This document shows positions 5,815-33,122 of a stretch of DNA of 64,000 nucleotides, in pieces (position 1 is the first letter of the stretch; every line of letters begins with the position of its first letter). Location of the stretch: assembly GCA_000310025.1 (NCBI GenBank), contig FN649736.1, forward strand, positions 524,016 to 588,015, written 5' to 3'. The notes under the pieces were generated by a model. It saw only the letters and a program-made list of their open reading frames with translations, ran no database searches and had not been told where the DNA came from. Source of the DNA: Ectocarpus siliculosus. Taxonomy: Eukaryota; Sar; Phaeophyceae; Ectocarpales; Ectocarpaceae. The position numbers and the translations under genes are program-made.

Positions 5815-5819
5815 AACGT

Positions 5820-5969
5820 ATGCGAAACTTGCATCGAGATTGTATTCACGACGGGTGGCGTCATCAGCCTATAGTAGTGGGAGGCGATGGTCACCCTATC
5901 GTTCCTCTGATGAAATCTGCGTCTTATCATTCACGCAGGACAACGACGCGCGACGCAGCGACTTCAGCC
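5820..5969 (+). promoter_or_regulatory. Conserved upstream block of the Zn2Cys6 pair (copy A side)
   Basis: About 150 bases before copy A's ATG align with the sequence upstream of copy B, on both sides of the element inserted there. Shared stretches include CGAGATT, GTATTCAC followed by ACGGGTG, AGTGGGAGGCGAT, TTCCTCT, CACGCAGG and CGCGACGCAGCG. No TATA box is obvious. The conservation shows that the duplication included the promoter-proximal DNA; which bases bind regulators cannot be told. Confidence 0.55.
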
Positions 5970-7189
5970 ATGATTCCAAGTATCAGGAAATACGGAAGCG
6001 TGCCTACATCGAACAGCTTGGGGATGTGCAAGAGTTGCATGGAATGTGGGCGAAGGAAAAAGAAGTGCGACGGCCTGACGCCTTGCAGGTGTGTGAAGTA
6101 TCGACAAGGGCATTGGCCGTGATGTTGCTGCTGGAAGCCGTGATTGTCCGTTAGGTCTTTAACGGATTGCATGCGGTCGACCTTGATCTTCTCTGAACGA
6201 AAAACCAACCGAAAGGAGCGCTAGCCGATCGATCACCACTATCGCGATGCTGATGCGTTCCGCGTAGCGCATCTGACCAACTGCTTTGCACCAGCAATTG
6301 CAAGGTACTCCGCCTACCTGAATCCCGCCGGAGACGACACTCGGATGTCCAGACCTACGTAAACCGTGCATCGCGTCAGTGTGTGATAGGGCAGTGACCC
6401 CCATCCCTTGCGCATTGTACAGCTGGTGCCTAGGAGCTGGGGTTTCATGCACCTACGTAAAGCGGAAGTGGCACCAGCCTCAGTCTGGGCACCAGCACAA
6501 ACCATGTGGTCCTGCCGTCACCATGAAGTCGACAGAGTCATCATCTGGCGCACCCCTGGCCAGGGGCGTGCTGCCTTTGAAGAGGTCAGCCGTCTTTGTT
6601 CGCCGCCCTTGATTGTTTGGACTACCATGGAAACACAAATGGTCGCCTTCAGCGCATGTCACACAAACTGCGTGGCAGCGTCGCATTCAGGCTTCACGAT
6701 GGTAGTGTACAGAAAGCAAGGGCAGGAACGAGAAGAACAAAACCGTGCTGAAACGGCTGCCCATCGGCATTGGTGTTTATCGCTACACTTGAGAGACTTT
6801 CACCGTCGAACAGTCCCACCACACACATGTTTGACCTGGGGTACGTCATGGTCTCAGATGTGAGCTGAAGGAGGACAAAGGGTGCTCTCGACGTTGAAGA
6901 GGCTCCCAAGTCTTGGGTGTCATATCGGGCGAGACTTGTTGTCGCCATTTCACCGTGTCCAAACGTATGTAATCTTGTACCAGATGCAGGTTGAGTGCAT
7001 CTCCGGCAACCGGGCTGGTGGGCATGCCGGAGAACGCATTCCTCAGTGACTTCTTCGGCTGCATTGGCTTCCTGCCACTCACCACACCAAGGTTCAGATA
7101 AGCCTTTATGGCATACACTAGACCGAGCTTCGCTTCCGAGAGTATCCCGTACTGCCCCGTCTGTTGTCGGTCAAGGAATCCGAGCGGGG

Positions 7190-7628
7190 GGTGTACTCAT
7201 AGTCGTGCATACCGTAGTCGTTAGACCATTGACCTCGCATCCCTACAAAGCCGGGACGGAGCACGCCGGGTTCTCACCAGACCAGGCTCTCACATCACCA
7301 AGCGCGAAACACCATGAGGTATTCGGCGAGTTGCATGAAGGGTGCACTGCATTCTGCTACGAGTGTTGGGCATCTTGTGATTACTTTCTTGCGTACGGAT
7401 GACAGCCGCGTATGACATTAAAGTTAACTCTGGCATTTTCACTTCCAGAGACAGCAGTTATAAGCACTGTGTAACTGCCTCGAGAGTGCTTGCCCAATGT
7501 AGCATAACGTTGTGCGATCATCCCCTTTGCGCGGAGTGAGGGTTCTCGACCCCACGCAACATGATCTACTCGGCCATCTTTGCCAAGCGACGAAAACCCA
7601 ACCCCGATGGCAATCACCGAGGGGGGGG
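7190..7628. mobile_element. Dispersed repeat R1, copy 2, inserted in intron 3 of Zn2Cys6 copy A
   Basis: This block matches the repeat at 1290-1885. It lies between exon 3 (ends 7091) and exon 4 (starts 7723) of copy A. The corresponding intron of copy B (30325-30504) has no such block but keeps similar sequence on both sides, including CGTCCGAGCGAT, which is at 7656-7667 in A. Copy A is therefore a filled site and copy B an empty one. It has G-tracts at both edges and no terminal inverted repeats. Confidence 0.7.
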
Positions 7629-10600
7629 AATACCAGGGGGTGGGGGGCAGTGATTCGTCCGAGCGATGGTAACTCGTACCCCAGTCCATCACCCAATTTA
7701 AGTATCCTGTTCGATTATCCAGCAACATCCGTGGAGCCATGGTGAGGATGATGACCCGCTCCACTGTCCAAGAACAGCGAGGAAAGATGCATGAAACCCC
7801 CGAGCAAGGCCGGGTCGGCGTCATCTCCGCCGAGGGTCGTATCGGCGCGGAAAATCAGCTCTCGATTGGCCCCTCTGCTTGCACATTTTGGTGCGCCGTT
7901 GGTATCGGGGCGCTTGTGAATGGAACTCACTTTGAGTCGGTGAGGAAGTGCTGTGATTGTCTTTGCCTACCCTTTTGCGAGTAGAAGCATGTTCCTCTTG
8001 GCACTAAGGGCGCTCACCCTTGCAGAGCTACTACAGAGTTTCCGGTGGAACCATCGCCTAAGGGATCACGCCAATTTCAATATTGGAAGCCCTGCTTCCT
8101 GTTAGGCGGCTACTCCAGTGTGGTCGAGCAATGTATTGCATACTTTCAGTAGGATTTAGTATTGCTGGGGTAAAGCCTGCATATTTCGACCTTTGAGCAT
8201 ACCACGCCTAATCGTAAGCAAGGACCCACAACGTATTGGTCACAATGAATCTTAGAAGTTGATAACAGGCCGCCCGTTCTCTCTACTGCGTCATGCATCC
8301 ATTTTGGCACAGTTCTTCAAAATTATAACTGGTGTGCCGCTTACATCGCCCGCGAATTTCAACACCTCCGCGATGAGTCGGAATAGGTCGCGAAGTATTC
8401 CCGAATGGCGCAAGATGAACTGGACGCCTATGATGGTTCTGCGAATACTGAGTTGGCAGAGTGAGTTGCGCGGAAAAATTGCAACACGAGGGCACTCTGT
8501 ACCGGGACCCATGCGTAAGTTCGTCGTATGTGTCGCGCGGGACGTATCGGTAGGAAGTGTTGGTTCGGGGTGCGCTTTTTTGCTGTCTGTCCATGTATGA
8601 AGATATCAGTACACATACGTTACCCGAGCAACCTATTTGCCTGGCAAGACAACCAAGGCATACTGTAGACTGATAGCGACACAAAAATGCCACACGCCCT
8701 CGACCAGGTTTGCATGGCTCGATTTTTCGTCATCAGCGACGTGGGCAATACCGACCTATGGTAGGTCCTCAAGGACAGGTTGAAGCGGTAAACTTTCATT
8801 GCCAGCCTTTTGGGCATTGACGCTATCGTTTCCTTGAACAACTCCTGCGTCTTCCTCAGCCCAGGGGATGGTATAGTATCTCGTATGACATACGTTATCC
8901 TTCCGTTCAACCCCTTACCCGCCTCCTTTCCTCGCGTCAGGGCGTGCGCGAGCCTGGGGCATTTCCTTGGGTTCATGGGAGATACGGTGAGCTCGACTCC
9001 TCCTGTGCGAGGTGCTGCACGTCGATCGTTCTGCCCGTGTCGCGCACACGTGGAGCAGTCCTCTTTCCGTTTGAAAGAGCCGATCGCGCAGCCACTGCAC
9101 TATTCTGTCGTCAACAACACCTCGAAAGATTGGAATCTCCCACTGGATGCTGTTTTTTGATCGACCCACTTATTTTCATTGCGATGAACATGTGTGTTTG
9201 TGTGCTTCAGGCGAAGTACGGAAAGTACCTGAAGCTTTCGGACTCCTTTTTGACTTCTTGCGTCGAGCAAGGCTCGACTGATATGCTGCCATTGGTGAGT
9301 GCGACGTCATTTACCTTTACATGGACCATGGTACTCCAAAGCTAGAGATCCTTTTTCCCTGCCTGGCAAAACTGACTATATGAAACCGATGACCGCTTGC
9401 TCCCTGAAGGCCACAAACACAGGAACGATCCCAATTGTAGTAATTCGCGTTGCAGGCTTAGACTACAACAACAGCACCGAGACGCCTGTGGGCTTAGCCA
9501 AGCAGAGAACCACTACACACCCGTGAATACTTCGAGACTGGTTTTGCCGTTTCAATTTGTTGTTGTATCCTGTAGACGGTGCGTGAGTGTAAACAACTGT
9601 TACGCGTTTTATTCTGCAGCGAGTTTTTCAACCGTGATCAGGAGAAAAGGGGGGGCTCACCCGCAGCGTCGCGCGGAAAACACGCGTGTGGGGTGATGCG
9701 TCGCGATCGAACAGGAATCGATGGTCTTATCCACTCATGGCTTGGAGCTTGCGCCGAGTCCGCGGCGAGGAGGTTTAGCCGATCGAGCGTTGCTGCCCTG
9801 AGACCACTGTATAGTTTTTCACATGCGTGTTAGGCACGAAAACGAACTCAGACCCGCCGTCGTGAAATAGTATCGGGGTTGCGGAGGTTGTGAACATAAC
9901 CGCGCTGCCCAATATAGCCCGAGGTCAGAGGTTGAGGTCGACCAAAGTATGGGCGTGAGGCGCGCTGGTGCTGGCTGTAGATTGTGTTTTGGGCAGGCTC
10001 GTTGCTGTGGAGATGGTGGACCTCCAAGGAGGATCAGATCGTGGCCGCCCGGTGCCCGAATAACACATCGACTACCCTACACCTCAAGCCACCGACGCGA
10101 GGGTCTTGTTGGATGCATGCAAGGTTGTCGCGTGGGAGACTATCCTGGCGGCTCCTCTGAGGAACTACTGTATTCTTCACAGACGTTGATTGATACCCTT
10201 TGGTAGGTGCAGGATCGCTTTGTTCAGACGTTTGTAGCCCGATCACGGCGCAACCGTCGCGCGGTTGCTCCTTCCTTCATGTGACGGCAACATGCTGGTC
10301 ATCGCTACAATGACGCGGCGATGGAGTTCGGTGTGGTCGGACCAGTCTCGACCGTTGTACTGCTTTGTAGTGCAGTGGGGCAAGGATTTGTTTTCGCTGT
10401 TTCCTTCAGATAATGCCAAATTGGTTTGTGTTTAATAGTTGTTGCAGTCGCGCGGATCTGCTGAACTCTCGTAAATTGAAACATGTACCCTGGACAGGGA
10501 TTCGCTGAGTTGGTGTACCAGAAGGACATGGTCCATGTCCAGGTGTTCGCCGGAGATCTTGGCACTCCGGACATCGACGGTATGGCCAACCGACGTCAGC

Positions 10601-13600
10601 ACCCCCCGCAGGTGTGTCCTGTAACCGCGTGGTAGCCGAATTGATTGGCCAATACACCAAGAGGGCCACTGTTGTTTCTGCGCTCCTTATATGTATGGCA
10701 CAATTGGTTTGGAATCGCTCATCGTCCGACTTTGAGCGATGGGTACGTGGGCACTTCTCGCGGGATTTGTCTGTGCTCTAATGTATGGGGTTAGATTGTC
10801 CGTGCTCAATCTCTGGGACGTTTGATGGTACCCCTGCTTGCATTGCCCATTCCTTGTCAAGTAGGGTTTTGAGAGTACTGAAGATGACGTGCTAGGAAAA
10901 GGTCAAATTGTGTGGGTGTGACAACGACAACATCAGGAACAACGACAACCAACACAGCAATGCTTGCTGCCGGCACCCTTGACGTTTCTTGCGACTTTGT
11001 GGTCACGTCAAGGTGACATGCATGTGGACCATGCCTCGAAACGTCAGCGTGCATCATTCCGGCCTGACAGGGAGTCGAGGGTTGTGGGCAGTGCTGCATG
11101 ATTGTGAATGGATACTACTACTGTAGATTTGCACTTCCGCTCTCTTCTGCTGCTCTTTATTTACCAGATCAAACCGGCTCTAAACGAAGGGGATATATTT
11201 CGGTACGTTGTCCAATCGCTTACGGGATTCATGGAGTGTGCCTTCGAGAGAGCTGGCGAGAACAATTCTATGCGCAGACAGTCGAGAGACAACGAGCCTT
11301 GTGAGGAGGACATACGCGGTGCTAGCCCACACGGCAAGATCCCCCGAGCGGAAGAACTGTCACAGGCTGTGGTGACTGGGATCAAAGAGGGCCTGATCGA
11401 TTTCGATCACCTTCAAGAAACAGTCGATCGGTGAGCAAGTTCAACCTTGCTTGACGGATGGTTTTGGAGTGCCATTCGACACGTATATGTGGTCAAGAAG
11501 CTCGTTTTCTGCAGCTCCTCTGTTGATTGACCCACTTGATTGTACATTTCAGCAAAGGGTAGATAGGTCGAGCTCTAGCACGCTTAACACGCGCCCCCAT
11601 ATTTCCCTTTCTCCTCTTGGCCGGCCTTCATATGGACGGCGAGCAGACCACACATTCGCTTGGGCGTCGGCAGCCTCATCATTAACATGTAAGTATTCCT
11701 GAACAATCGAGTGTTCAAAACAACGCGCGCGGTGTTGTGTTCTTTGCGTGCCATGCCCCAGGCTCCGTAGAGTTACGCACACCACAATATAGTTGCAGTG
11801 CCTCACGAACAACCTGGGTAGAGGTGAAGATTTAATAGCGATGACTGACTGCATGTTGTAAAATGGTTTCGCCATCTCTACAATGCCACGCTCCGGAGCT
11901 GTCAGGAGCCTGGGATATCAACATGCAGCGAAAGAGGACGTTGGAGGGGCGCTGGAGAGGTTTAGTCGCTGCGTCGAGGTATTCGAGCGGTACCCTGGCG
12001 TGTGTCGCTGCATGCTAATATGGTGAGCCGGTCGCGTGCACGTCACCAAAGCCGACGTTGAAAGGTTCGCTACGATTCTGTCGTGTGGTGGCGAGTTCTG
12101 AGACAGGCGACGACGTGAGTCTATGCGCGAGAAGAGTGTTTCGGAACATGCTGTTGTTGTTCAGTACTGAGATTTGTGAAGACCTCTTGCGATAGTGTCG
12201 CGACTGCCGATTTTGTGGAACCTGCCCGAAGACTAGAGTTAAGGATTGCCCCCCCGCCCCCCAATGGGGCGGGTGGCCATAACGAAACGGATGGCGGTGA
12301 GCGTTTAGGAGGAAGTGAACTAAAGAAGAAGGAAAACGACCACACTCCTTTAGTCGATGTATATACTCATCATAAGTAGGTGGCGATCAAACCAAAGAAG
12401 TCAATAGACGTGAAAGAAAGAGCCGAGCAGTCGCGCATGTGTTTCTCGTTCAACAATGTCAACCATCATCACAACAGAGAGCGTGTGTTGCGAGGTGCTG
12501 TGCTATGACGAGCAAATATGTGTGTGTGCGAACGAGCCTCTTTCTACCCTCCACCTGCCGCTGTTTGTGTCACATGTTTGGACTTCCTCTGGCGCGCACA
12601 TACGGTTGTTTGTGTCGTTCCCAGTCCCACGGGGTATCTCATGGGGTGCTCGGACAACCAGCAACTGTTCCCAAAAAATATAAAAAATCTCACAATATCA
12701 AAATTAGGATTTCCTCAAGATCCAGCGGACCTCGATCCTCGGTGATAGAAGAGGCCATCAACATGAATCAAAATTTGATTTTGGAAAACTCCGATATTAG
12801 TAATTAGCTTGCGACTGGTGGTATCGCTTGAAGTAGGGACGGCTGAAAACCGAGAAGATTCGCCGTGCAGTTCAGCATAGTCGACAGCAGCAGGTAGTAG
12901 CAGGTAGTTCCTGATACCCGCCTCAAGCCTATCCGCGCAGTCGGTACTGGGAAGCACCAAGAGACGTTGATGCCCAGCGATATGCATGAATGAAGAGGAA
13001 GCCAGTATATGTGAAAATGCTGAATGGACAATCATACGTGTATGTAGCTCTGGATACGTACACAAAAAGAGATCGCTCCGGTCTCGAAGATCCAAAGCGA
13101 CACACGATAAAGGTATACGAGATACAACGCGCAATCGGTATTAGGCAGTGCCGATAATCGTTCACACCCAGTGATGTTCATGGGGAGGAGAAGAACATGT
13201 GGAGCTACTCATGGACAATCATACTTGCATAGTCCTTGGTGATGTACACCAACAGAGATATCGCAACGTTCTGCACGATCCAAACGGCACCCGACAAACG
13301 TGTAAGACATCACTCAAATACTTGTGAAAGATGCCGCAGCGTGCAGCAACGTTTGTAGACAGGAGGTGCTCCGCTCTGGCTCGATCATAGGAACAGTACT
13401 ATCATGGCAATGGAGCAGGTATTGCCTTGTCAATTGTTACGTTTCGGTTTCCTTGTAGAAGTTCATAAGTAGATGATTATAGTAGTCCCTTTTTGCTCGG
13501 CGACCACAATATGGTGACAACTATACGTGCATCTGTTGGTCGGCAGCATCATGTGACAGGTGCACAACACGCGCACGGTTATTTCGCATCGTATTGAAGA

Positions 13601-15348
13601 ATGCTTTGTCGTCGCAGGAGGTATCCCATACGGTCATGGTCGTCGCGATAGGCAAACGTTCTTGGGTGGTCGATTTCTGATCCATACTGCTGTACCCTAA
13701 TCATTTATGGATCCTTGGATATCCATGCTGAAACACAAGTAATGTGTAACGACACGACGACCATCCTGTGAGTATATGTATACCATGATGACGTCCGTGC
13801 AGGCATGTCAATAGCATAGCACTGAGATCTTATGCGCTAGTCGTCTGTCCTGATGTGTTTTTTGCTGCCCCCCTCGTACCTCCCGTCGTGTAAAGGCGCC
13901 ACATAGCACACGGTGTCCTGGGGAGCCTAGCAGCGATTGACGATTCCAGAGCTCGAGGGCTGTACGATCGGTTGCGGGAGGTCCACAATTCGTCGCGTCC
14001 CTCTGCCTCTCTTCCGGCGCCACCTCTTGAGGAGTGGGGTGGGATATCTGACCTCTGCGATAATTTCCAGTGCAGGTGCGTGGGGAGGATGTCGAACGTT
14101 TCCATAAAGCCAAGACGAATTTGTGTTCGGGATAGAGGTGTTTTGTCCGAAACCTCTAAAGAACCACGACAGGCGCCTTGTCTGCACATGGGCAACATCG
14201 GACGATGGCATTGGTCACGCCGTTTCCTTTGGCTTGTTCGCCCTAGATCAGCTGAAAGTTATCGTTTATGATGGGACGCACTTACCGAAAGAAGCGGGGA
14301 GATGGCACCCCCCCTAGATGGACTTTCGAAGCTCGATTGCTCCACAAACAAGTGGGTGCGGAAAGAGCGCGGTACCTCTGCGGCAAATCCTAGACGAGAT
14401 GCTTTCACAACCACCATTTGTGGTGTTGGCATAAGCCTGGTTGTGAAGCAATTAGCTTTGAACATTGGTCTAGGGGGGGTCGCCTCTTTCGGTATTCATG
14501 AACGGCAAGGGTTCCGCGGACAAGGTTATTTATGTATTCCCCGGGTGGAGACGTTTCTTTTTCAGCTCAGCAAATTATGCGAAATCGACAAAGGGGGGTC
14601 CGGGAACTACATCAGGAGGGTCGATCGGTTCGTTCTGTCCGGAGAACAATCCGCACTTTAGGTTTCGATCGGCAAACCATTCCGTTAGTCAATCTCATAG
14701 TTGATTTTTCTCGTGGGCAAAATGAATCTTGATAGGTTCTTTCGTAGGCTTGGTTAACCGCCAAAGGACAAACCTGTTTGGCAACATGCCGATGTGCATC
14801 GAAGCGATGGAGAGGTACAAACGAAAAAAAACACGCAGGTTGCTAGATGAACGAATCGACCATGAACCTTGTGTTTGATTTGAACACCTAAGAGGTATGT
14901 AGTGCAAACATTGTCGTTGGAGGTGCCTACACAATATTTCCGGCTGCTGTTCAGTGCGTCCTTGCTCCTCCTCGAAGGCTTTTCACAAAGTGACGAACAA
15001 ACTCAAGACATACTGAAGGAACGCGTAGGGATTCTGCAATTCGAGAGAAGGCAAGTAGAGACTACCAGCAGAACAGTGGTTTGGAAAGTAGAACAAACAT
15101 AAACGATGCAGCGACCATCGGTCTACACGGGACCGGAGCCACCAACCATCAGTTTTCGGAGTTTCCTTTCCGGCGGGTACGTTTTCGCCCATGTCGCGGC
15201 GGCATATTTGCTCGGGCGCTGGGCAAGTATATTCTGATGTGGCACTCCATGTCATATCCAACCTGTTTCAGTGTTGTCGAGGCAGCAGCACTGTCGCTGC
15301 AGTCGCTGTACAGCTATTCCTTCAGCTGTAGCTACAAAGTAGCTCGCA

Positions 15349-15796
15349 TGTGATGCGAGGTTAGTAGGCAAACACACAGAGAGATCTCATAGTACACACA
15401 GACGCCCAAGCTGTCTTCACCTGACGGTTACAGACTTGGCAACGCCTTCACGGTACTGCATAAACCCATGCAGTAGAATAGAGTCGTTCTTGTACCACAA
15501 TTACTCCGACATGTCCTCTCAAGAACTACCCGGTTCTAGTACCAATGCATCAGATCCAATTCTCTCTCAATGTCGTCTCGAAACAATATCCATGTCCTCT
15601 CGAAACAAATCTATCTAAAGAACTTTTGACTCAATATCAATTGTTTTGCCTCTCTCAGCTGCGTTGCATCAGCAGCGATTTATTTTGCTTAAAATCTCCC
15701 GAATTTTCTTCTAACTTATACACACACATACACCATCCAACCCTCAAGACATAAAAGTCTGATTACGAAGAGGGGAGGTGATTAAACTCCTAACAG
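15349..15796 (-). repeat. Possible copia LTR fragment
   Basis: This is AT-richer sequence directly downstream, in the minus-strand sense, of a copia RNase H remnant. Read on the minus strand it begins TGTTAGGAG at 15795. That position would suit a 3' LTR, but I see no purine tract beside it, no second LTR and no certain far boundary. Confidence 0.25.
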
Positions 15797-15828
15797 CATG
15801 CCACGGGCGCGGAGAAACGCCGACGGGT

Positions 15829-16015
15829 TTAGCCCTTTCGTAAAACATCCGCTTTCTGGAGCGACGTCGATATTTGCTTCACGTCTAAGACTCCGTCAGC
15901 TACCAGCGACCTTACGTGGTGAAACTTCACGTCAATGTGCTTAGTCCTTGGGGTGATACGGAGGCTGCGAGTTAGTTTCAGAGCTCCCGAGAATATGGTA
16001 GTAGCCACCGTCAAC
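15829..16015 (-). pseudogene. Ty1/copia RNase H remnant in intron 13 of copy A
   Basis: The minus strand reads FSGALKLTRSLRITPRTKHI, then DVKFHHVRSLVADG and QISTSLQKADVLRKG, then a stop at about 15829. This is the copia RNase H end: R-T-K-H-I-D-V-x-x-H-H, a valine/aspartate stretch, then the A-D-V-L segment. Only the last 60 or so residues remain. On its other side it abuts the plus-strand LINE, as if one element landed in the other. It belongs to a different subfamily from the remnant at 3.4-3.9 kb, judging by sequence. Confidence 0.7.
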
Positions 16016-19000
16016 CTCGGTAGCAGGCTTGCCCACACCCGTGCAGTCCGGACTAAACCGAAACAGAAGCAATTCAACCGACGGGAACTGCAGTTCGAAG
16101 CAGCACGGTGTGCGGAGACTCATCAGTTCCTCCTCAACCTCGACACACGACTGGACGAGCAAACAACCACCGCCGCGGAATTGGCGACCGGCTCTACCAA
16201 TGCTCTCCTCGAAGCAGCACGGACGACCCTAGGGGAGGAACCGCGGAGACGCCGCACGCAGGAGTGGTGTGAGACCCCAGAGACGAGAGCAGTGCTGGAG
16301 GAGGCCCTTACCAAACGGCGGGAAGCGCGCCGAGCGATGAGGGGCAATTGGAACTCAGGAACGTGGAGGGTTCTGAAAGCAGCGTGTAAGGGAGTGGCTA
16401 CAGCAGTCGAAACGGGCATTTATGCCCATCTGGACGGATGTGTGACTGAACTTGAAGCAATCTACAAAGAACGCGACATGAGAGGACTGTACCAACACCT
16501 CAAGAGATAAGTGGGCTTCAGCGGGAGACAAGCGGGGGAACAGCAGTTCGTCACGGATGAGAACGGCGTGTCGCTCCGGAACAGAGACGACACCCTCCAG
16601 CGGTGGGCGAGATTCTTCAGCACCCTGCTCAACACCAGATCCCCTACCCTGAACCCAGGCATCATCGAACGAGTGACGCAGCGGCCAGCGACAAGTTACA
16701 CTCAACGGTTGGGAGAGGTGCCAGAACTCGAGGAGGTGAAACGGGCAACGAAAGGCCTCAAGAACTGGAAGGCACCCGGCTATGACTCCCTCCCTGCCGA
16801 GTTGCTCAAGATCGATGACGACGAACCCTTTGTCCTGGGACACCTCTTAACCATCCTCGTCAAGGTGTGGAACGGAGGAGATATCCCGCAAGAGTGGAAG
16901 GATGCAACCATCAAGGTGTTGTACAAGAAGGGTGACCGGTCCAACTGTAACAGCTACAGGGGGATTTTGCTAATATCTCACGTAGGCAAGGTCCCCATCA
17001 AGATCATCACCAACCGTCTAAGCGCCTTCTGCGAAGCCAACAACATCCTCCGGGAGGAACAGTGCGGATTTCGACCCGGGTGATCCACCGTCGACATGCT
17101 GCTCGTCGTGCGCCGCCTCCAGGAGCTGGGGCGGAGAAAGAAAATACCGCTCTACATGTGCTTCGTCGACTTGAAGAAGGCGTATGATTCGGTGAACCGA
17201 GAGATGCTATAGAAGGTGCTGGCCAGGGCCGGGATTCCTGCGAAGCTAATCAAAGTCATCCGCCAATTCCACGATGGAATGCGGGCCCGGGTGCGCATGG
17301 ACGACGGAGAACTATCGGACTGGTTCTTCGTCGCACAGGGCGTGCGACAAGGATGTGTGCTATCCCCACTGCTGTTCAACATCTTCTTCGCCGAGGTCCT
17401 CGAGGTCGTCGTTATCCGATTCAGCGAGGATGATGTTGTTCTGCGAAACCTGGTGTGCTTGGAGGAGGGGAAGACGGAAGCGGGGGGGGCGGAGGAGACA
17501 CCCCTTGACCGAGTACGGAAGGCAGTATAGGGGATGCTATATGCCGATGATGCCGGCGTCGTATCGAGGTCTGCAGAAGGACTAGCGAGAATGATGACCA
17601 TCATCGTTGAGGTGTTCGGGGAGTTCGGGCTGGCGGTATCAGAGAAGAAGGCGGAGACACTCCTGATGCGCGCGAAGGACAAGCCGACTACAACACCACA
17701 ACCCCCCTCCGCCTCCACCTCTGACCATCGAAGCCGCGGGACAGAAAGACGCCCAGACGACCGAGTTTCGGTACCTCGGTGGCCTCGTCAACGAACATCG
17801 CGACCTCCCCCGGGAGATCAACTACAGGAGCAGAGGAGCGTTGGCGTGCCTCAGGCGATATGGCCCGGAACTCTTCGACAGACCGAAGCGCCATACCGAC
17901 TCAAGATCCACCTGCTCCAGGCGGAGGCGATGGAGGCACTGCTGTACGGCTGCATGACAGGTCACCACTCAGCGGCCACTACCAGACGCTGCGGTCGATA
18001 CACCACCGACTGCTCGTTCGAGTTATCGGGTACAAGCGCAAGAAAGACACCTACCGGCAGCGTTCTTACGCCCAGACGCTGAAGAGGGTCGGATGCCAGA
18101 GCGTTGAAGCCACGATCCGACAACGACGCCTACTGTGCGCGGGAACATTGGCAAGGCAGCCGGACGGGCGACTCCCGAAACGACGGATGCTCGGCGAACT
18201 GGCGGGGGGGGGAGAAGCGACGTAGGGGGGGACAGGAACAGAACTGGCCGAAGTGTGTGCTCGAAGGCCTGAAGGCATTCGGGGCCGACCACGGATCTAC
18301 GAAAACCGATCCATGTTGTCTCGGAATCCCGGTACCGAAAGACACGGCACGTAAGTTCAAGTGGACGGAAGCCGCCAAGGTGGAGGGGGAGTACCCTGGC
18401 ATGCGGCGGTGCTGCAGGGAGCTGAGAGGTTCATGATCTCCTGTCACAAGAAGGAAGAAGAGGCCAGCCGACAACGAGCGCTCAAACGAGACCACAAGCC
18501 AACAACCAATGGGGCGGGAGGGGGGCAGGAGACGGACGAGACGGCGAGGGAAGAAAGCAAACGAGAAGAGACGGACCGAGTGGCGTGATACGTGCCGGGT
18601 TGAATTTCTTTTAGCCGATTCCACCCCCCCAACGCTGCACCACTGCACCAACCCCCCACTAGTGATGACGTACCATTACCATGTATCGCTGGTTGGTGGC
18701 CATGTTGGCGTGTTTGCCTGTTCGTCAGTGGTCTCTCCACCGTGTGCCTTTTTCTGTCTGTTATTTCTTGTTATTTCGACCTGGTCCCTTCTTGTCCTCG
18801 CTCTTTTTCGTTTTCTTTCTCTTTCCTTCCTGTTTCCTTCTATTTTGTTTATTTTTTCCTCTTTTTTCTCTTTGTCGCTCTTTTTTCTCTCTCTTTCTGT
18901 GTCAGATGGCCTTGTCTCTGCTTGCGTGTGAAGCACCAAGATTGAACCAAGGGGGTGTACCTCTCTCTGGCCCGTGATGCTGACTCCTAGTCTCAGTTGG

Positions 19001-19225
19001 TACCTCGCATAGCGCGCAGAGGGAGAGGAGGACTCCAGAATATCTGTCGTTGATTCCTATTGACTTGCGGACCCCTCGGGGCCAGTTTATTTGAGTGTAC
19101 CTTTTTAGGGTAAGTTAGCCTGTGACCAGGGGAATCGACCGCGTCAAGTGTTGGATCAGTACGTATGAAGGTACTGGGTAGAGAGAGATCGGAACGGTTT
19201 TTAATGTGCGAAGACAACAACAACA
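16016..19225 (+). mobile_element. Degenerate non-LTR retrotransposon (LINE) inside intron 13 of copy A
   Basis: A reverse transcriptase can be read in one frame from about 16020 to 17690, crossing stops at 16508, 17081, 17210 and 17528. RT blocks in order: [16 protein letters not shown] (about 16765), [20 protein letters not shown] (about 16930), EEQCGFRPG (17057), FVDLKKAYDSV (17163, first catalytic Asp region), [14 protein letters not shown] (17340) and YADDAG (17540, catalytic Asp pair). After 17690 the C-terminal region continues in two other frames: EFRYLGGLVNE, then RLKIHLLQAEAMEALLYGC, then VRVIGYKRKKDTYRQRSYAQ. The order is typical of LINEs, but no endonuclease precedes the RT, so the copy is 5'-truncated as well as frameshifted. 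The 3' end is placed at an AACAACAAC tail near 19215; the last 110 bases recur at 37.83-37.94 kb. It cannot be active. Confidence 0.85.
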
Positions 19226-19800
19226 AGTGTTGGAAAAATATTCAAACCCTCACCCGTGCTGCCTCCAACTGGTCCGTCAACACGGTCTTTGCAGGTTATA
19301 TGATTGTGTCATCGCGAGTCAAGCCTTCAGCGTGTTCTCCGCCACGCCCAAAAGCACTAGGAAAGCAGCTGCATCGGCTCACGCCGGGCGCATCGTCCGG
19401 AAGTGAATCTGCAAGGTTGTCGTTGAGGAACAACGTAGCAACATCGTGCCGCCGGTTGTCACTCCCGAGGACGCGGCCGGCTCGATCATGGTTACCCGTT
19501 GCAGCAACCACGACAAGCCAGTGGCATCTACTAGCTCGTGGGAGTCGAACCAGGAGCCTGCGCCGCAGCTGTAGGATCGAGCTTGTCTACTACACATTAC
19601 AATGGCCTTGAATCGGTCATGGGAGGAACAAGTGATACTGACGTTTTCCACAGCAATGGGGTGGTGGTGGTGGTCGTGAATTTTCTGACTTGATAGCCCA
19701 AGTTCCCGGTGTATCTCCGACACCGCTCGCATCGAGAGAGGTACATGGGGCCCCAGAGGAGATCGAGGATGATATTTATTGCCGCGGTGGACTGATTGGA

Positions 19801-21000: not shown

Positions 21001-21039
21001 AAGAGCGACCTGTTGAGACGTCGTGATACAAGTTCCTGG

Positions 21040-22286: not shown

Positions 22287-22323
22287 GGGTAACCCACACT
22301 ATTTGACAAATGGAGTAAGATTA

Positions 22324-22875: not shown

Positions 22876-22881
22876 GTCACG

Positions 22882-23944
22882 TATTCAAGACGGACATACG
22901 ACCCGGTGATGGTATCTCGGTCTGGACCGGGTCATGCTGCTGTATCATGAAACGTTGCATCGGGATCTGTAGTTCATGTCATTGACGATTGTGACCCAGC
23001 TCCTGACGTAGGAACGTCCAGGTCGTAGCACCGTCGATATGGGTCATGACTCGGCCATGACCTGGCCATGTCCTGATCATAGCCTGGTCATGATGAACCA
23101 ATAAACGGTCATGGCAGAGTCATGACGGAGTCATGGTCCGGTCATGAACCAGTCATGACCTAACCAGGTCATGGCCGAGTCATGGCCACGAACGTATCAT
23201 GACCTTGACAATGACCGAGGCCATGACTCAATTTCGTGACCAAGTCATGACGATTGTGGCTAAATAAGTCATACGGTCATGACCAATGACCAAATGATCA
23301 CGATCACGAGAGAAAAATATCGGAGTCATGTTTGCTCTACGTGGAGTTGTAACACCTGATCTGTGATACGTTGGGAACTCTCCCATAGGTTCGGCAGTAC
23401 TTCACTAAGGATGGATGTACCATCTGGGGGGCTGTGCGGGACGTTCATTCGTCTTTTCTCCGGTGTTGTTCTGAGTTCGCCCCTTCTGCGGCGCCCAAGG
23501 TTACATATGAGATTCCCGAAGATTTTTTTGAGATGATGCAGACGGAAACCCTTCTCGGATGTGGCCGGCTACATATCCAAAAATAGACGTAGAAATAGTA
23601 GGGGTGGAGAGGCCAGGTTGGAAGAATCTGGTCTGTTCAACGGGTGGTCCAAAACTAAAAGAATTGAGGCCCGCAGACAAAAAATCCCATGGTTCGTGGA
23701 TGAGTCAATTACCCGGAGTCGGACTAAGTCGCAAGCGATGTATTTACCAGAGGCGGAGAAGTCAGCACTGTAGTTAGCCTCTCACCGCCAGGACGCGTCC
23801 ACCTTTTCCCCGCCGACCAGGCGAACTCCCCCCACACGCGGGAGTGAGAGAAGCGCCGCAGAAACCAAGTCAGACGCGGCAGGAACAGCAACGTACTCAG
23901 TGCTGCTATACCCCAGAAAGTATCCCCACGCGCCCCACCGTGTC
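22882..23944. repeat. 1.1 kb direct repeat, right member
   Basis: Same orientation as 21202-22286, beginning TCAAGACGGACATACGACCC. It contains the second GTCATGAC array (about 22900-23340) and the conserved right part with CGCCCCTTCTGCGG, CGATGTATTTACCAG and CTCTCACCGCC. It lacks coding capacity. Confidence 0.7.
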
Positions 23945-24838: not shown

Positions 24839-27800
24839 TCAACATCGAAGCGCCGCATCTTTGTCTTCACCTGCATCCATCATGGCCTGAGAAATATCCA
24901 GCCAGTCTGATGCGGTAAGAACATCATCCCCGGTTGTGGTCCCGTCCACCTCTCTCAACCCCGGCGATGTCAAGGGCATATCGGGCACGTGGGGCACCGA
25001 GCCAGCAATTACACCACCACTGCCACATCCCTCGATCGCACCACTCAACACGTCAGTATCATCACTTGTGCCTCCCTTGACCGGTTCGGAGTGGACATTC
25101 AAAGGAAACACGCTCGGTCCGACCGGCAGACTCATTTGCGACGCAGGCTCTTGGTGCGATTCCCACGAGCTAGTACATGCCATTGGTTTGTTTGCGTTGC
25201 TGCAAGAGGCAACCATGATCGAGCCGGTAGCATCCTCGGGAGTGACACCCGCCGACCCGATGCTGCTACGGTGCTCGTATTCAACAGTCTGCAGATTATC
25301 TTCCGTGCCTTGTGAGCCTGCGCCGCTGCGAGCGCAGAGGGGCTGGGTGGAGAAAACACTCAATGCTTGTCTCGCGATAACACCCTCGAATATCCTGCAA
25401 ATAATGCATTGACGAACCAGAGGGAGGCAGCAGGGGCGAGGGTTGAATCCTATGTCCACAGTAGTGGAACGGGTTGGTTTGGACACGGAGTGCCACACCA
25501 ACAAAGTTGTCGGCTAACCGTCGAGTCATATTCGCCGCTTTTGAGCGAAAGCACAACCACGCGGAAAGAGACGCTGCTACAATCATTAGTGGTCCAGCTC
25601 TCGAGTGGACCGATGGACTGTGTTCCGTTCGCTTTTTTGGACGGGGTCACTTGCCCTACTCTGCGTGTCTTTTCTTTCATGGTCTCATGGGGAAATGCAG
25701 GGATCTCTTCCCGTGTTCATCTATCGTTTTCGTTTGTACCTCCCTCTGGGATAGGTTGAAAAGACTGGGGTTGATTCCTTCAAACGAAAGACTTCAAACG
25801 TTGTTGCAACAACCACTTTGTATGTAGTACATCTCTTGAGATTTCACATCTGAACACGAGGTTCACAATAAATTCGTTCACTTATCAACGATGCGCGGTT
25901 ACCGATTTCTATTGAAATTCGTACGGGCTGTCCCGACAAGAACGAATCAAAACGACCCTCCCGACCGAGCGATTTGCCATCTCAATCGATCATTCATATT
26001 TAGAAAATAAAATAAAGAGAAAGTCACGCTGTGAAGCTGTAGGAGTCCTCGGAAATCCGTGCCATTGAAGGAAAAGAGCACTTCAATAACAAAGGCTTTT
26101 CGGTTTTGCGATGACGAAGAGGCAATCATTCACGCCGAAACAAGGCCAACGATTAGGGTTGTGCCTGTAGACTAGACAGTTTGTCAGCTTTGTTCTTGAG
26201 AAATTCGACAGACACGGCTTTCCCGCACAGTAGCTTGCCTTGGTGTTGACAACAGGTTGGACAACCCCCAGTGCATGTGTCATAGCCGGGAATCATTCCC
26301 CGCACGCACCTGCATAGGAAATGATCGCAGAATGCAGATATCCCACGCCACTCCTCCAAAGGTGGCGCTGGCAGAGAGGAAGACAGCCGGGACGGATTGT
26401 AGACCTCTCGCAACCGAGAATACAGTCCCCGAGCTCTGGAGTCGTCAATCGCTGCTAGGGACCCGAGGATTCCGTGTGCAAGGTGACACCTTACATGGTG
26501 GGAGGTAAGGTGGGCGGCAGTAGCACAAGATGAAAATGCCAAGGTCGTACCACACACGGTCTCCGTACACACCGTTGACACGCCTTTACCACGAATGCCA
26601 GAACTATTAATAGTGGCCGAGCTCCTCCGTAGGAGAAGCCACACACATGATACTGAGCAACAAAACTGGCACTACATCTTCTCGTCCTTTAGACTCATGG
26701 CGCAGCTTGTCCCACAGCTCGCCACGATCACGGATCGCAGCCATCGAGGCTATCAATGTCAGCTACGGTGATATTAATTCAATCGATTTGGCTCACCATA
26801 ATATCCTGTACCGGCACAAGCCAGGGTACCGCTCGAATACCTCGATGCAGTGCCCGAACCTCTTTAGCGCTCCAGCCGCATCCCCATTTACTGCTTTTTG
26901 AAATGCCAGGGTTCTGTCACACGCGGCACGTGGCATTGTAGATGTGGAGCGAGTCGTCGCTGTATATAACAGTAATACAAATTCTGTACTACCCAGAGTT
27001 GTCCGTATGGCAGTAAACACAGGTTGTATTGCTCGTAGGTCAAACCAACGTGAGCCATCGTACGGAAACAACACAGAAAAATATTGCGGTTTCTAGCAGT
27101 CAGGACCATGTTGTCAGGCTTACATGTTGATGAGGAGACCGCCGACGCCCGTGCGAATGTTTGGTCTGCTCGCCATGTCGGTGAAGGTCGGCCACGAGGA
27201 GAAAGGGAACGAGGGGTGCGTGAAAGGATGTTAGAACCCTGCGCTGATACCAAAAAGTGCGGAAACAGGGGTCGACCAACAGAGGAGGTGCAGAAACAAA
27301 GGTTCTATGGAATTATGGATATTTCGATGTCGCATGGCCTTTGAAAACTACCCGTCAAGCAGGGTTGCAATTTGCTCACCGATCGGCTGTTTCTTGTAGG
27401 TGTTCGAAGTCCATGAGGCCATTTTTTAGGGCAGCCACCATAGTATCAGACACCTCTTCCGCTTGGGGGGCGCTCCCGTGTGGAATAGCACCGCCTCCGT
27501 TGTCTTCGCAAGGCTCGTCTTCTTTCGGATGTCTGCGCGTCGCACTGTTCTGACAAGCTCTCTCGAAGACAACTTGCTCGAACGCCGCATGCGACTGGGC
27601 AACATACCGATATAAGTCTCCTTCGCATGCAGCTGGCTTGATCTGGGTGACAAGTAGCAGCGGAAGAGGGTGAAGGTGCAGATCTCGTTGCTTGCACATA
27701 CATAGTACAACACTATCATAAACTCTCGACTCCCTGCCGCCTTGAGGTTCCCACGAAGTCGCACGAAACGCCAAGGGTACCGGCAGCAACCATTGCTGCT

Positions 27801-30800
27801 TCGGTATCTTGTTGCTGCTCTTGTTGTTTTCACATCAACATTTTTCTGCCCGTTTTTCCCCGTACGTCGTCTTCAGCACCCTCCCAACCCTGGTTCACGA
27901 AGAATTCGATCATGCAAACTTAGAAGCCCTTCAAGTTCGCCGAAACTTTGAGAAAAAAGAACTCCTTAACGTCGAACTACAGGTCAGTGCAGAAAAAACT
28001 CCTGAAAATCGAAGGAATTATCGCTCAATGTGGGATGACGACATCTTAATTCTTTTTTCAATGTTCTGTTGCTCAATGTCTTTGCTGGTGTGGGCGAGCG
28101 CACATGTTCACCTAAGAGTACCATGATCATGTCTGTTGCCGACTGCCCAACCTGACACACCTTATTGCCGTGGCGGACAAGGAATGTTGCGAGAATTGAG
28201 TAGCGGCATCCCACATCGCTGTTGCAGCCACAAGCACTCTGTGCGCAACTTTACGAAGACACCGTAAGCCAATTAGCCTCAGCTACGAGGTACAGGACAC
28301 ACCTGCGGAGCATCTTGACGAAGGGTGCCCAACGACTCGATACCCGCAGCGTCTAGATGTCCAGAGTACACCTGGACAGTGTCCTTCTGACTGACGATCT
28401 CTGCGAATCCCTGGCCAAGGTACATGCATGCGTACGAGAGTTCAGCAGATGCGTACGACCGCAACACTAAACCACAACAGTGTAGCATTATCTGAAGTAA
28501 ATGGCACAAAAACATGCCTGCCCCACTTCACTTCAAGGCCGTACTCCGGGAGTGATCGGTCAGACTACACCGGACCTCATCGCTGCGTCATTCGTCGACG
28601 AACAACATGGTACCAACGTCGGACGGCCGAGTGGCATGAAGTAAGAGGAGCAAGACGCTACTGTAGTACCGTGATCGGAATACCAACGTCTGAGCAATGC
28701 GATGCTGCGGCTACCAAGCGCATCAACGCACTCTGTGAATACTACGGTAGTTTCTGAGACGAGCTGCCAGGATGATCTCTCCCGTGATGGCCTTGCACAC
28801 ATCCAACACGATGTTTACGTCGGTGGCCTAGCTCATAAGGGAAAGTTGCTCATAGGCGTAGGACGGCAACAATCTGAATCTCCTTTTTGGGAAGCCGGCC
28901 GGGCTGCCAGTCCACTGCTGTCCGTGCAGCAATCTTCCTGTTGTAAACAGCCACACTTTCGTCGACCTCAACCTCTAGGCTTTGCTACAGTCCAACGAAA
29001 TGCAATGGCGTCACACTCACCGCTGGCAGCATGTCAGTTGACCCTTGCTGCATGGAATCAATCAAGAAGGAGCCTGAAAGCTTCAGGTACTCCTCATAAT
29101 TCGCCTAAAGCACCGGAGCACAACGTGTATGGCGCCAACAAAAATACGTGGGTGGGTCACATCATAGCGTCCAGTGGGAGGACACCATTTCCAACATATT
29201 ATAAGCGTCGTCGACTATGGGAATCATGAGGTGGCTACGCCATCGGCTCTTTCGACGGGCAAGAAGGCATGCTCCTCCTGTGGACGACGCGGGCATAACT
29301 ACCAAGGGTGCCGCACGTCCCACAGAAGTTGACCTCACCATGTCTCCCATGGAACCGTGGAAGTATCCCAGGATCGCCCACGCTCTGACGCGGGGAGAGG
29401 CGACGGGTTCTGGTGTAAGGGGTCGAACGGGGAGGACCACTGTATGTCACACAAGATTCTACATTTCTTGGACTGAGTTTAAACGCTGGAGTTTGTCAAA
29501 GTAGCGAGAGCGTTACTATCCAAACGGTGGCACGAATCTGGCCGTGTTGTCCACCTCACTGAAGAGGACAAATCGACCGTTACGAGCGCGGTGCAAGGCG
29601 TGTGGAATCTTGTGTGGCGTTAGCTTTGAACGTTTGATTGCCTCGCCAGGAACATAGATTGCTCGGAACGTGTTTGTCCAAAGATGTACATGGTCAAACA
29701 GCAAAAATTGTAAGAAACAACACCTCCCTCCGACAGACACGTGCCACCCGATACATACCACAAAAATACGCATGGGTCCCGGTATAGGTTGCCCCCGTGA
29801 AGCACACAATTTGTCCGCGTGACTCACTTTGCCACCTCGGCATTCACAGGGCCTATGTAGGCGTCCAGTGCATCTCTCGCCAGTCGGGAGTAGTTCGCAA
29901 CCTTTGGGACACATTTTTGGAGGTGTTGCAATTCGCGGGCGGTGTGTTGACTAGCGCCATCGGTAGTAGCGAAAATTGTGGTGGTCGGCAGCTGCACACA
30001 ACAATCTGCGGTGGTACCAAGCAAGGATCAGAGTCACAACGCGACGGGGAAACAACGGCGCTTCTACTCGTAAAGGGTAGACAAAAACAAATGCGGCATG
30101 TTCCCACCGATTCAAGAGGGCTTCCCTTCACAACAGCCCCAACACCGACTGCACACCAAAATGTGCAACAGGAGGGGCCCGTCAAGAGCTGATTTCTCGT
30201 GGTGATGCCGTCCTCGGTGAAGTTGGGGCCGAATTGGCCTTGATCGGGGGAGTCGTGCAGAGCGCCCAGCTGCTGTTGGACAGTGGAGAGGGTCATCATC
30301 TTCACCATCACTCCACGAATGTCACTGGCGGCAACAGCGAATCGCAAAGGAATCTTTTGTTGTACGATTGACTGTTTACGAGTTATGATCGCTCGGACGA
30401 GTCTCCGCCCCTCCCGGAAAAATCGTTAGCGACATAAGGGACAATACGGGTACCCCCGGCGGTGGTGTGCGCATCAGTGTATCCCATCAAAGCTAGATCT
30501 GCACCTTGGGGTGGTGAGGGGCAGCAGCCCAACGCAGCCGAAGAAGTCGCTGAGGAATGCGTTCTCAAGCGTGCCCACAAGACCAGTCGCCGGAGATGCG
30601 CTCCATCTGAACCTGGTTCAGATAGGAGAGCATGTCTTTAGACGCGGTAAGATCATGCGCAAAACTCTCGCCCGATATGACACGGAAAGCCTTGAGGTCT
30701 CTTCGGAGAACCCTTAGTCCTCCTTTAGCTCATACCTGCGGGTTCGATGTACCACACACAAATAATGTGTTTGGACGTGTTGGTCGACGGTGAAGCTCGC

Positions 30801-31708
30801 GCACGTGCGGTAAACGCCAACGGCGATGGGCAGAAATATATTTCAACACGGTGTCGTTCTTCTCTTTCCTGCGCCGGTATTCTCTGAACGTTGCTACTAT
30901 GAAGCTCGGATGCGATGTTGCAGACACAGTTTGTGTGATACCAGCTGAAGATGACCGTTTGCATTTCTATTGTTAATGACGACTGACCTTTTCAAAGGAA
31001 GCATGCCGCACGCCAGGAATGCGCCGGATAATGAGTCTGTCGACTGCATGGCAACCTGACCACGTGGATGGTGCTGAGGCTGACGCTCGTGCCCAGGCTG
31101 ACGCTGGTGCCACTTCCGCTTGCTGTAGGTGCATCGAACCCCAGTTTCTGGGCAACGGCTACACAACGTCCACGTGGGGGGGGTAACGGTCTTACTTTCA
31201 CTGGTGCACGATTTTTGTAGGTCCGGGCCGTCGATTGTCTACACCGGTGCGTCCGGTGGGATTCAGGTAGGTGGGATACCTTGCAATAGCTGGTGTAAGA
31301 AGTGTGTCAGGTGCGCGACGCGAAGTGCATCAGCGTGGTGATGGTGACGGGAAAACATCACTCCGGGTTCCGAAATCGATGTTATTGACCCGAGCTCTCG
31401 TTGAAGATCACCGACGTTTTCAGCACGAGCCGCGTGTATCTGTGCTATTGATTGGCAAGCGCTCTTTTCGGTTGTTTACCCTTCAGAGACGATCAGGGTT
31501 GACTGCATTCAATCCCGTACAGACAAAAAGGAGCATCATGACTTAAGTAGCAACATCATGGCCAACGTCCATGTCGATACATCACACACCTGCAAGGAGT
31601 CAGGCCATCGCACTTCTTTTTCTTTCGCACACATTCCAAGCAGGCCCTTCGCATCCCAGCATTTGTCAATGCAGGCAAGCTTCCCGCTTTCTTGCTAGCA
31701 GCACTCAT
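24839..31708 (-). CDS. Zn2Cys6 (fungal-type) transcription factor, copy B, 14 exons, intact
   Basis: Predicted nuclear sequence-specific regulator. Exons in coding order: 31708-31590, 31158-30988, 30606-30505, 30324-30108, 29901-29828, 29384-29339, 29104-29021, 28827-28732, 28410-28303, 27642-27380, 27165-27124, 26913-26797, 26489-26310, 25394-24839. All introns are GT-AG, phases match throughout, and 2175 bases give 724 residues plus stop. The binuclear zinc cluster has Cys 23, 26, 33, 39, 42 and 49 (spacing 2-6-5-2-6) with basic KKKK between the second and third Cys, followed by TYSKRKW. The first intron splits the codon after Cys39. Later landmarks: GCVGLLPLTTPR, GPSCCTFWCAVGVGA, VANYSRLARDALDAY, AWAILGYFHGSMGD, EVFERYPGLCRYR, SLPAPPLEEWRGISAFCDH. 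The last exon gives an acidic/Ser-rich tail with SDWLDISQAMMDAG, a candidate activation segment. I do not recognise a fungal middle-homology domain. The start was chosen by gapless alignment of exon 1 with copy A (21 of 39 identical). A hAT-like element begins 45 bases upstream. Exon 11 has a weaker acceptor context and is the least certain junction. Confidence 0.87.
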
Positions 31709-33043
31709 GATCCAAGACGCTGCGTCGCGTTACCCTGCGTGCATAATTGTAGACAGGGGTGTTCACGGAGCGGGGCGGGGCGGTTGTTGTCATTTGCAAA
31801 CGTCATGGAGCGGAGCGGTGCGGTTAATCCGTACGTTTAGCACGTTTTTTTACGGAGCGGTTTAGTCTCCTTTGTAGCATGACGCGCAATACCGTGTCCT
31901 TGACGACGGTGCCCCGTCAGACGAAAGTTCCACTCATCCGGATATCTGGCAAACTGACATAGTACCTGCAACTTCGTAAAGTGCGTTGGGTTTGAGAAAT
32001 CGAAAATCTATTTTGCTGCGCGGCGTGCTGTGCATGGAGGCCGTCGGCTACGCCGTACGCGTTCTCGCGGCCGGAACAGCCCAAACGAACGAAAGAGCTG
32101 TCGATCTGTCAGATTGCTGGACCAATCAAGTAACCATTGCCCATATCGATGCCTCCTCGACATGTTCGTTCCTGCAACACGCACAAAACAGCAGGACATA
32201 ACCCCTTTGCGTCCTATCCTGCTAGAACCACTAGAGTCAAGTACGCCAGGTGCTCCCGTTTGCATATTGCTCTCCCGCACGAGCAGCACGGACAGATTCA
32301 GCTCTAGCCTGCCTAAAAGACTGCGCCATAGTCCGCTTCCCCCAACCCCTATGACGTATGGTCGAACTGTTTTGGTCTCCGGAGGAAGATCGGGCTTCGA
32401 CGTGAAGAACAACACAACCATCTCGTTAAGGTCATCAGGCGCCATTTTCTTCCAAATGAGCTTGTACACGAACCCCAGTCATGAAAAATCCCTCTCCCTG
32501 AATGGCAACTATTATTGCACTGCCAATGCAAAGGTCACATACGTAGTATTGGGGGGCGCACAGGTTCACGCACGATATTGTATGAAAGACTCGCGCCGTG
32601 CGAAAGCCGTGGCTCCGTGGCAACACCAAGGCGGTATTACAGTTTTAACCGTAGATTTAGTGGTTTCACGAGTGGATGATGTGACAGAGTAGCTCATTCT
32701 TCTTTCTCCGCAAAAACCCTTGTACGGATATTTTGGAAACCTCACGGACGGAGCGCAGCCGTTATTTTACCGAGGACATAATTCTTTCGGAGCGGATCGA
32801 GTTATTTTGCACACGTCACAGGACGGAGCGAAGTGTTGTTTTATTCTTTTTCATTGGGAAATGTCACGGAGCGGTTACAACCGCTCCGCTCCGCCGAGAA
32901 AAACCGTTCCGTGAACACCCCTGGTCAAGTTCACAGCAGCAAGATTGTTTAGAGGAATCATACTAGGCATCGATCGCCTCCCACTGGGCTGGTGAAGTCA
33001 CCCGTTGTGAATACCTGGTATAAATCTCGGTGGGTGTTTCGCG
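31709..33043 (-). promoter_or_regulatory. Upstream region of copy B, split by a 1.17 kb insertion
   Basis: The 45 bases next to the ATG (31709-31753) and the segment 32924-33043 both align with the continuous block 5820-5969 in front of copy A. The ancestral proximal promoter of B is therefore interrupted by the element at 31754-32923, and any element further out has been moved more than 1.1 kb away. Confidence 0.6.
31754..32923. mobile_element. Non-autonomous hAT-like DNA transposon next to copy B start
   Basis: The ends are inverted: CAGGGGTGTTCACGGA at 31754 and TCCGTGAACACCCCTG ending at 32923. Inside both ends lie GGAGCGG-type repeats (31774-31870 and 32740-32895), giving subterminal repeat arrays. 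The CAGGGG terminus resembles hAT-family ends. No clear 8 bp target duplication is visible (flanks ATTGTAGA and GTCAAGTT differ). Internal frames of about 150-220 codons show no hAT dimerisation motif or DDE pattern I can recognise. Copy A carries the uninterrupted equivalent of the flanks. Confidence 0.7.
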
Positions 33044-33122
33044 TTACATACTGATGGACCAATTTCTCATATAAGACGAACTTAGGGGGTGGTAGACAAC
33101 CCCTCCTGACGCTGGCTCTATT

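Follow-up and report, generated by a model that had tools for sequence, protein, structure and literature searches.

Two facing Zn2Cys6 regulator genes of Ectocarpus siliculosus belong to a large clustered family and are not each other's nearest relatives

Introduction

Fungal Zn2Cys6 transcription factors (PF00172) offer the nearest comparison for two genes, A and B, which face each other in a 64,000-nucleotide stretch of the genome of the brown alga Ectocarpus siliculosus (contig FN649736.1, positions 524,016 to 588,015). The whole stretch is called the window here, and its contig is called C11. A and B resemble the fungal factors in the spacing of six cysteines and in a basic KRK linker, and both score above the cut-off of the domain model. 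They differ from them in having no Pfam match to the middle homology region, in an intron that splits the zinc cluster, and in belonging to a clustered family in a non-fungal genome.

Zn2Cys6 proteins with the same DNA-binding domain, and of the same wider group as A and B, have been reported from stramenopiles. A 2014 review gives 24 canonical Cys6Zn2 proteins for Ectocarpus siliculosus (PMC5611559), and nine Zn-clus proteins are given for Nannochloropsis oceanica (PMC3499364). In the accessible parts of these publications the proteins appear as counts, without gene clusters, an exon plan or a middle region. No clustered family was found in the titles and abstract openings of the partly covered literature on Zn2Cys6 or zinc clusters in brown algae, stramenopiles, diatoms and Ectocarpus. 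Zn2Cys6 proteins of a brown alga are already published; what is added here is the clustered family and the intron that splits the cluster.

Some clustered regulator families grow by tandem duplication. The family of A and B is similar to such clusters in its same-strand runs with flips between the runs and in near-identical patches between some members. It differs from them in that its zinc core shows no diversifying by the ratio of nonsynonymous to synonymous substitution (dN/dS; relative value 0.43, 0.22-0.69, 10 pairs).

Results

Two facing genes with the same exon plan

Self-comparison of the window at the DNA and protein levels, including the comparison with its reverse complement that the initial annotation had proposed, gave a collinear inverted match between A at 5949-19571 and B at 31729-25133. 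DNA identity across this match was 72-81%, piecewise. Gene A lies on the plus strand and gene B on the minus strand, and the two are convergent, as had been claimed. Exon borders were set by visual inspection of the two paired sequences, and only GT and AG were accepted at intron ends. The features were as follows; all exons are from the spliced models, and the two gene rows also rest on Pfam.

5970..19406, plus strand: gene A, 13 coding exons, 543 residues, Zn2Cys6 cluster and middle region, acidic C-terminus lost
5970..6088, plus strand: A exon 1 (Cys1-Cys4 of the cluster), also matched in the exon-1 search
6423..6584, plus strand: A exon 2 (Cys5-Cys6)
6990..7091, plus strand: A exon 3
7723..7939, plus strand: A exon 4
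8387..8460, plus strand: A exon 5
8941..8986, plus strand: A exon 6
9211..9294, plus strand: A exon 7
10088..10183, plus strand: conserved stretch of A intron 7, outside the 13-exon model
10498..10611, plus strand: A exon 8
11168..11430, plus strand: A exon 9
11647..11688, plus strand: A exon 10
11906..12022, plus strand: A exon 11
13896..14075, plus strand: A exon 12
19295..19406, plus strand: A exon 13, terminated by a premature TGA; the stretch beyond is decayed
24839..31708, minus strand: gene B, 13 coding exons, 692 residues, intact
31590..31708, minus strand: B exon 1 (Cys1-Cys4 of the cluster)
30988..31158, minus strand: B exon 2 (Cys5-Cys6)
30505..30606, minus strand: B exon 3
30108..30324, minus strand: B exon 4
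29828..29901, minus strand: B exon 5
29339..29384, minus strand: B exon 6
29021..29104, minus strand: B exon 7
28303..28410, minus strand: B exon 8
27380..27642, minus strand: B exon 9
27124..27165, minus strand: B exon 10
26797..26913, minus strand: B exon 11
26310..26489, minus strand: B exon 12
24839..25394, minus strand: B exon 13, with an acidic C-terminal tail of DWLD type, a motif also present in relatives

Both genes have 13 coding exons with equal phases, and GT/AG was present at all 12 introns of A. Ten exons are identical in length between A and B (119, 102, 217, 74, 46, 84, 263, 42, 117 and 180 bases), and two differ by multiples of three (162/171 and 114/108 bases in A/B). The last exon has 556 bases in B and only 112 in A, because A stops early at the premature TGA. 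The product of B is open throughout, and the proteins share 59.5% identity across 531 aligned residues. The initial annotation had aligned 14 exon positions, twelve of them equal in length or directly alignable, with equal phases. The agreement in length and phase was borne out; the 96-base item at 10088..10183 turned out to be intronic. It was rejected as an exon on two grounds: among the five genes aligned there, an AG in phase occurs only in B, and in A the phase-0 frame read from the AG that is present contains a stop.

Zinc cluster, middle region and tail

In the spliced exons 1 and 2 of both genes, the cysteine spacing was C-x2-C-x6-C-x5-C-x2-C-x6-C, and a basic KRK linker follows the cluster. 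The Pfam model Zn_clus scored 32.7 bits in B (E 7.8e-8) and 30.5 bits in A (E 3.8e-7), against a curated cut-off of 21 bits. These results confirmed that exons 1-2 encode a Zn2Cys6 cluster, and that this is a convergent pair of Zn2Cys6 regulator genes outside fungi with the same exon structure. Intron 1 interrupts the cluster after the fourth cysteine in both genes.

At the sequence level, no Pfam match to a Fungal_trans-type middle homology region was found in the nine family members scanned, A and B included. TPR matches were weak, with TPR_8 in three of the nine (best E 0.021) and TPR_12 in one (E 0.016). A PDB search with a profile of the middle region, built from nine of the 21 models, gave no matches. 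A PDB search with B gave ten weak matches, nine of them to zinc-cluster regulators (best E 0.049). An acidic C-terminal tail with a DWLD or DWLE motif was present in 13 of the 16 genes with a modelled last exon, the exceptions being A, c351m and c400m. Over 10 pairs, exon 6 (relative dN/dS 0.12) and exon 3 (0.21) were the most constrained exons. The N-terminus (0.94) and the linker (0.92) were loose and the last exon stood at 0.75; diversifying selection was looked for in the zinc core (0.43) and not seen.

A and B are members of a large clustered family

A search of the genome (189 Mb, 492 contigs) with the B protein gave many matches outside the window, mostly on contig C32. Merged by hand with the matches of two further queries, these gave exon-12 matches at no fewer than 43 loci: 27 on C32, six on C34, five on C11 (A and B included), two on C16, and one each on C116, C30 and C3. 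These counts are lower bounds, and an exon-12 match does not imply an intact gene. The first 11 exon-12 loci on C32 lie on the plus strand, the next seven on the minus strand and the following three on the plus strand, after which the order is mixed. Within this cluster, c438m and c451m (C32:438.2-463.0 kb) were 97.8-99.5% identical in exons 4-6 and 86-93% identical in the other exons compared. Similarly, c538m and c583m were 97.7-100% identical in exons 2-5, the only exons modelled in c583m. Such near-identical patches suggest recent gene conversion or partial duplication. A separate observation concerns the exon-2 model of c451m, in which GS stands in place of the RC seen in relatives; this may reflect loss of the fifth cysteine or an error in the model.

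Gene models were made for 16 relatives and three more distant ones. With A and B included, the exon lengths recurred as follows: 102 bases in 14/16 genes, 217 in 15/15, 74 in 15/15, 46 in 14/14, 84 in 14/14, 108 in 13/15, 263 in 16/17, 42 in 16/16, 117 in 15/16 and 180 in 16/16. Exact lengths were not imposed by the exon finder. Intron 1 was found at the same place in all eight gene models having exon 1, A and B among them. An exon-1-only search gave 43 matches at E values up to 1, and 41 of these extend to the last residue of the query, which is the exon end. When the Zn_clus model was run in six frames, it found 12 places genome-wide, of which only one (on C21) overlaps the exon-1 matches. 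So small an overlap is expected if an intron splits the cluster.

The exon finder missed exon 1 in six of 12 otherwise near-complete relatives. Further upstream DNA gave exon 1 for c538m, c438m and C3_975p, and none for c509p, c478p, c420m and c451m, although the exon-1 search had same-strand matches about 5-9 kb upstream of the latter four. Exon-1 sequences found late were kept out of the gene models. One scan with an exon-12 alignment (14 of the 16 modelled exon-12 sequences), in which 40 stretches fitted a pattern, gave no relatives in viral contigs.

These results place A and B in a large Zn2Cys6 gene family, mainly clustered on C32 and C34. As far as relatives could be modelled, the family follows one 13-exon plan in which intron 1 splits the cluster after the fourth cysteine.

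Gene A is constrained over 12 exons and has lost its tail

Exons 1-12 of A contain neither a stop nor a frame shift. The dN/dS of its terminal branch was 0.51-0.54 with three reference pairs, and eight other members had values of 0.43-0.72. In a simulation of neutral drift over these exons at a distance (d) of 0.28, a mean of 11.4 stops arose and none of 2000 runs stayed stop-free; at d 0.1, 0.25% of the runs did. Neutral evolution of A over its whole branch was rejected by the dN/dS values and by this simulation. The last exon region, compared with c313m, carries the premature TGA and five frame-shifting indels. The last exon of c351m is also cut short, with four frame-shifting indels of its own in other places. 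One damaged member of the pair had been claimed without saying which; the description fits A, and only at its C-terminus.

It is conceivable, at clearly less than even odds, that A is a pseudogene in the course of decay and that its first 12 exons have merely escaped hits so far. The TGA, the five indels and the repeats in its introns agree with such a state. However, the 12 exons lack any stop or frame shift, GT/AG stands at 12 introns (the borders were chosen by that rule), and the branch dN/dS is like that of other members. In addition, the chance of all five indels falling in the tail, if they were placed by length alone, is 0.0014. Since 12 exons have been kept under constraint and the tail has been lost, the product of A, still made or made until recently, is probably a protein that consists of the cluster and the middle part alone. 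We read A as encoding a protein without the acidic tail, alive or only recently dead.

B groups with genes on C32 and not with A

Against c313m, c271p and c351m, all on C32, B showed 86-87% coding identity, 78-81% identity in alignable non-coding DNA and a synonymous distance (dS) of 0.21-0.23. The corresponding values against A were 75%, 72-73% and 0.52. The dS between A and 13 members, B included, was 0.44-0.53 over at least 450 codons, with 0.44 for c271p. Four members with fewer codons gave 0.38-0.65, among them C3_975p with 0.385 over 389 codons.

Two trees were built. In tree 1 (16 proteins), B and its C32 relatives formed a clade with bootstrap 100. Forcing A and B to be sisters cost 49.8 log units, with p 3.6e-6 in the approximately unbiased (AU) test. 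In tree 2 (18 proteins, exons 3-12, three more distant members added), the B clade had support of 99, the AU p value for A and B as sisters was 8.6e-4, and B paired with c351m (86). Placing A as sister of the whole B clade was equal to the best tree. The two trees overlap in most of their data and used one substitution model. Models c583m and c240p were dropped from tree 1 (2/18, fewer than 200 residues), and c583m, c240p and C11_4086p from tree 2 (3/21). These results rejected A and B as each other's nearest relatives. A signal of gene conversion between them was also looked for, and no stretch was found in which B clearly resembles A more than B's sisters do. Only in exons 8 (69.4%) and 10 (82.1%) was the A-B identity above each of the three A-sister identities, with margins of 0.9 and 2.6 points to the nearest sister.

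The genes c271p (C32 at 271 kb, plus strand) and c313m (313 kb, minus strand) are sisters with support of 98 and 97. They face each other with their last exons about 30 kb apart, and an inverted duplication is more plausible for them than for A and B.

DNA upstream of the two genes was compared with that of three relatives examined that far upstream. The features concerned were as follows.

5794..5908, plus strand: upstream block common to A, B, c313m and c271p (sequence comparison)
32951..33065, minus strand: the same upstream block before B (sequence comparison)
31756..32921, minus strand: stretch with inverted ends that separates the upstream block from B exon 1; A lacks it

The initial annotation had described about 150 bases of upstream DNA shared by the pair. 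A block of 115 bases was found, at 67% identity between A and B. It is not special to them and was rejected as a pair-specific flank, as it also stands before c313m (67%) and c271p; the block of A in fact matches the c271p block (71%) better than it matches the B block. No match to it was found before c351m. DNA homologous to 31756..32921 precedes three B-clade genes on C32, and the exact inverted ends occur only in B.

Because B is nested among C32 genes, its arrival from C32 is favoured. B belongs to a clade with three genes of the C32 cluster, from which it probably reached C11. A forms a separate, older lineage, best placed beside the B clade. The idea that the pair arose from one gene duplicated in place did not hold, given that B is nearer to the three C32 genes than to A and that the sister relation was rejected in two overlapping data sets.

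An older event on C11 was also considered, in which a single gene there was duplicated locally in inverted order into A and the ancestor of the line of B, and the C32 copies were seeded later from that line. We consider this unlikely, though not negligibly so. It agrees with the adjacent, facing position of A and B and with the equally good tree in which A branches beside the entire B clade. However, tree 2 pairs B with c351m of C32 (86; not resolved in tree 1, 51), so C32 would need to have been seeded twice. Convergence alone says little, since another convergent pair on C32 (c530p and c538m, exon 12 at 535.5 kb plus and 539.3 kb minus) are not sisters in either tree. A simple local inverted copy, with either gene derived directly from the other and no further gene taking part, would account for the facing arrangement, the equal exons and the shared upstream block, but the trees refute it, short of a severe failure of their models, and we give it hardly any credence: the sister relation fails twice (overlapping data, one substitution model), B is far more similar to the three C32 genes than to A, and two C32 genes have the same upstream block.

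Repeats and other features of the window

Two repeats lie in introns of A.

15992..18900, plus strand: retrotransposon-like repeat, probably a long interspersed nuclear element (LINE), last intron of A; right end not mapped
7186..7576, plus strand: dispersed repeat, intron 3 of A (self-comparison, genome search)

The first repeat had 39 other places at 91-95% identity among the 40 candidates scored out of 1149. Its reverse-transcriptase match (RVT_1, E 0.0048) is below the Pfam cut-off, and the sequence is read as a probable LINE. This repeat accounts for the length of the last intron of A.

Further observations were made in the window. A direct duplicate (21203-22221 and 22885-23890, about 74% identity over the largest piece) lies in the spacer between A and B. 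An inverted repeat (33765-34008 and 34262-34507, 87% identity), perhaps a mobile element, lies just outside B. A direct duplication at 35615-36043 has copies of about 215-220 bases each at 94.5% identity. An open frame at 55442-55990 on the plus strand has a 46-residue match to Met_gamma_lyase (PF06838, E 1.3e-22), found in a scan of eight of 57 frames.

A large EsV-1-7 family marks brown algae. In this genome, all of the 150 candidates scored out of 880 matched the EsV-1-7 repeat, against 0 of 14 control genomes, which points to a brown alga. For Ectocarpus species 7, the accessible part of a report gives 90 EsV-1-7 proteins (PMC12629598).

Discussion

Taken as a whole, we assign a probability of roughly 0.8 to the reading that A and B belong to a clustered family of regulators, that B probably came from the C32 cluster and that A is an older lineage without the tail. 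The proteins, if expressed, would be ordinary DNA-binding regulators. The N-terminal Zn2Cys6 cluster and basic linker would bind DNA, as the cluster and the KRK linker suggest by analogy with fungal relatives. The conserved middle part, perhaps TPR-like, would mediate contacts, and the acidic tail ending in a DWLD-type motif would activate transcription.

Several points weigh against this reading. All exon borders of A and B are inferred from sequence. Among the 16 relatives, 13 exons were recovered in five, 12 in seven and 3-8 in four, the last partly because only part of the locus was taken. Phase and length range were imposed when the relatives were modelled, so that phase agreement there is built in. 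The exon-1 query stops at the exon end, and the exon-1 search alone therefore cannot show the intron. The position of B inside its own clade was not resolved in tree 1, and the support of 86 comes from the smaller set of exons 3-12. The place of A is not firm, as a position outside the near members was not rejected (AU p 0.154). The upstream DNA common to the B clade may reflect a loss in A and not a gain in the line of B. A may be freshly dead, its stop being recent. The role of the middle part is a guess, given no significant Pfam or PDB match.

The initial annotation had presented the pair as a compact case of duplication and decay. Decay is seen in A, in the last exon region only; as to duplication, A and B account for two of the 43 or more exon-12 loci and so are no isolated case. 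This locus warns against taking every facing pair of similar genes for a local inverted duplication.

We also considered that A and c351m lost the acidic tail independently but retained the zinc cluster and the middle part, and that members without the tail occupy the sites of activators such as B and damp them. We regard this as improbable and put it forward as speculation; if true, the clustered family would produce its own competitors.

Far from being occasional strays, the fungal-type zinc-cluster regulators of this brown alga form a family of at least 43 exon-12 loci, mostly clustered and with a recurring exon plan. Since intron 1 cuts the zinc cluster, the six-frame scan with Zn_clus recovered so few places, and most members would escape a count based on poor gene models.

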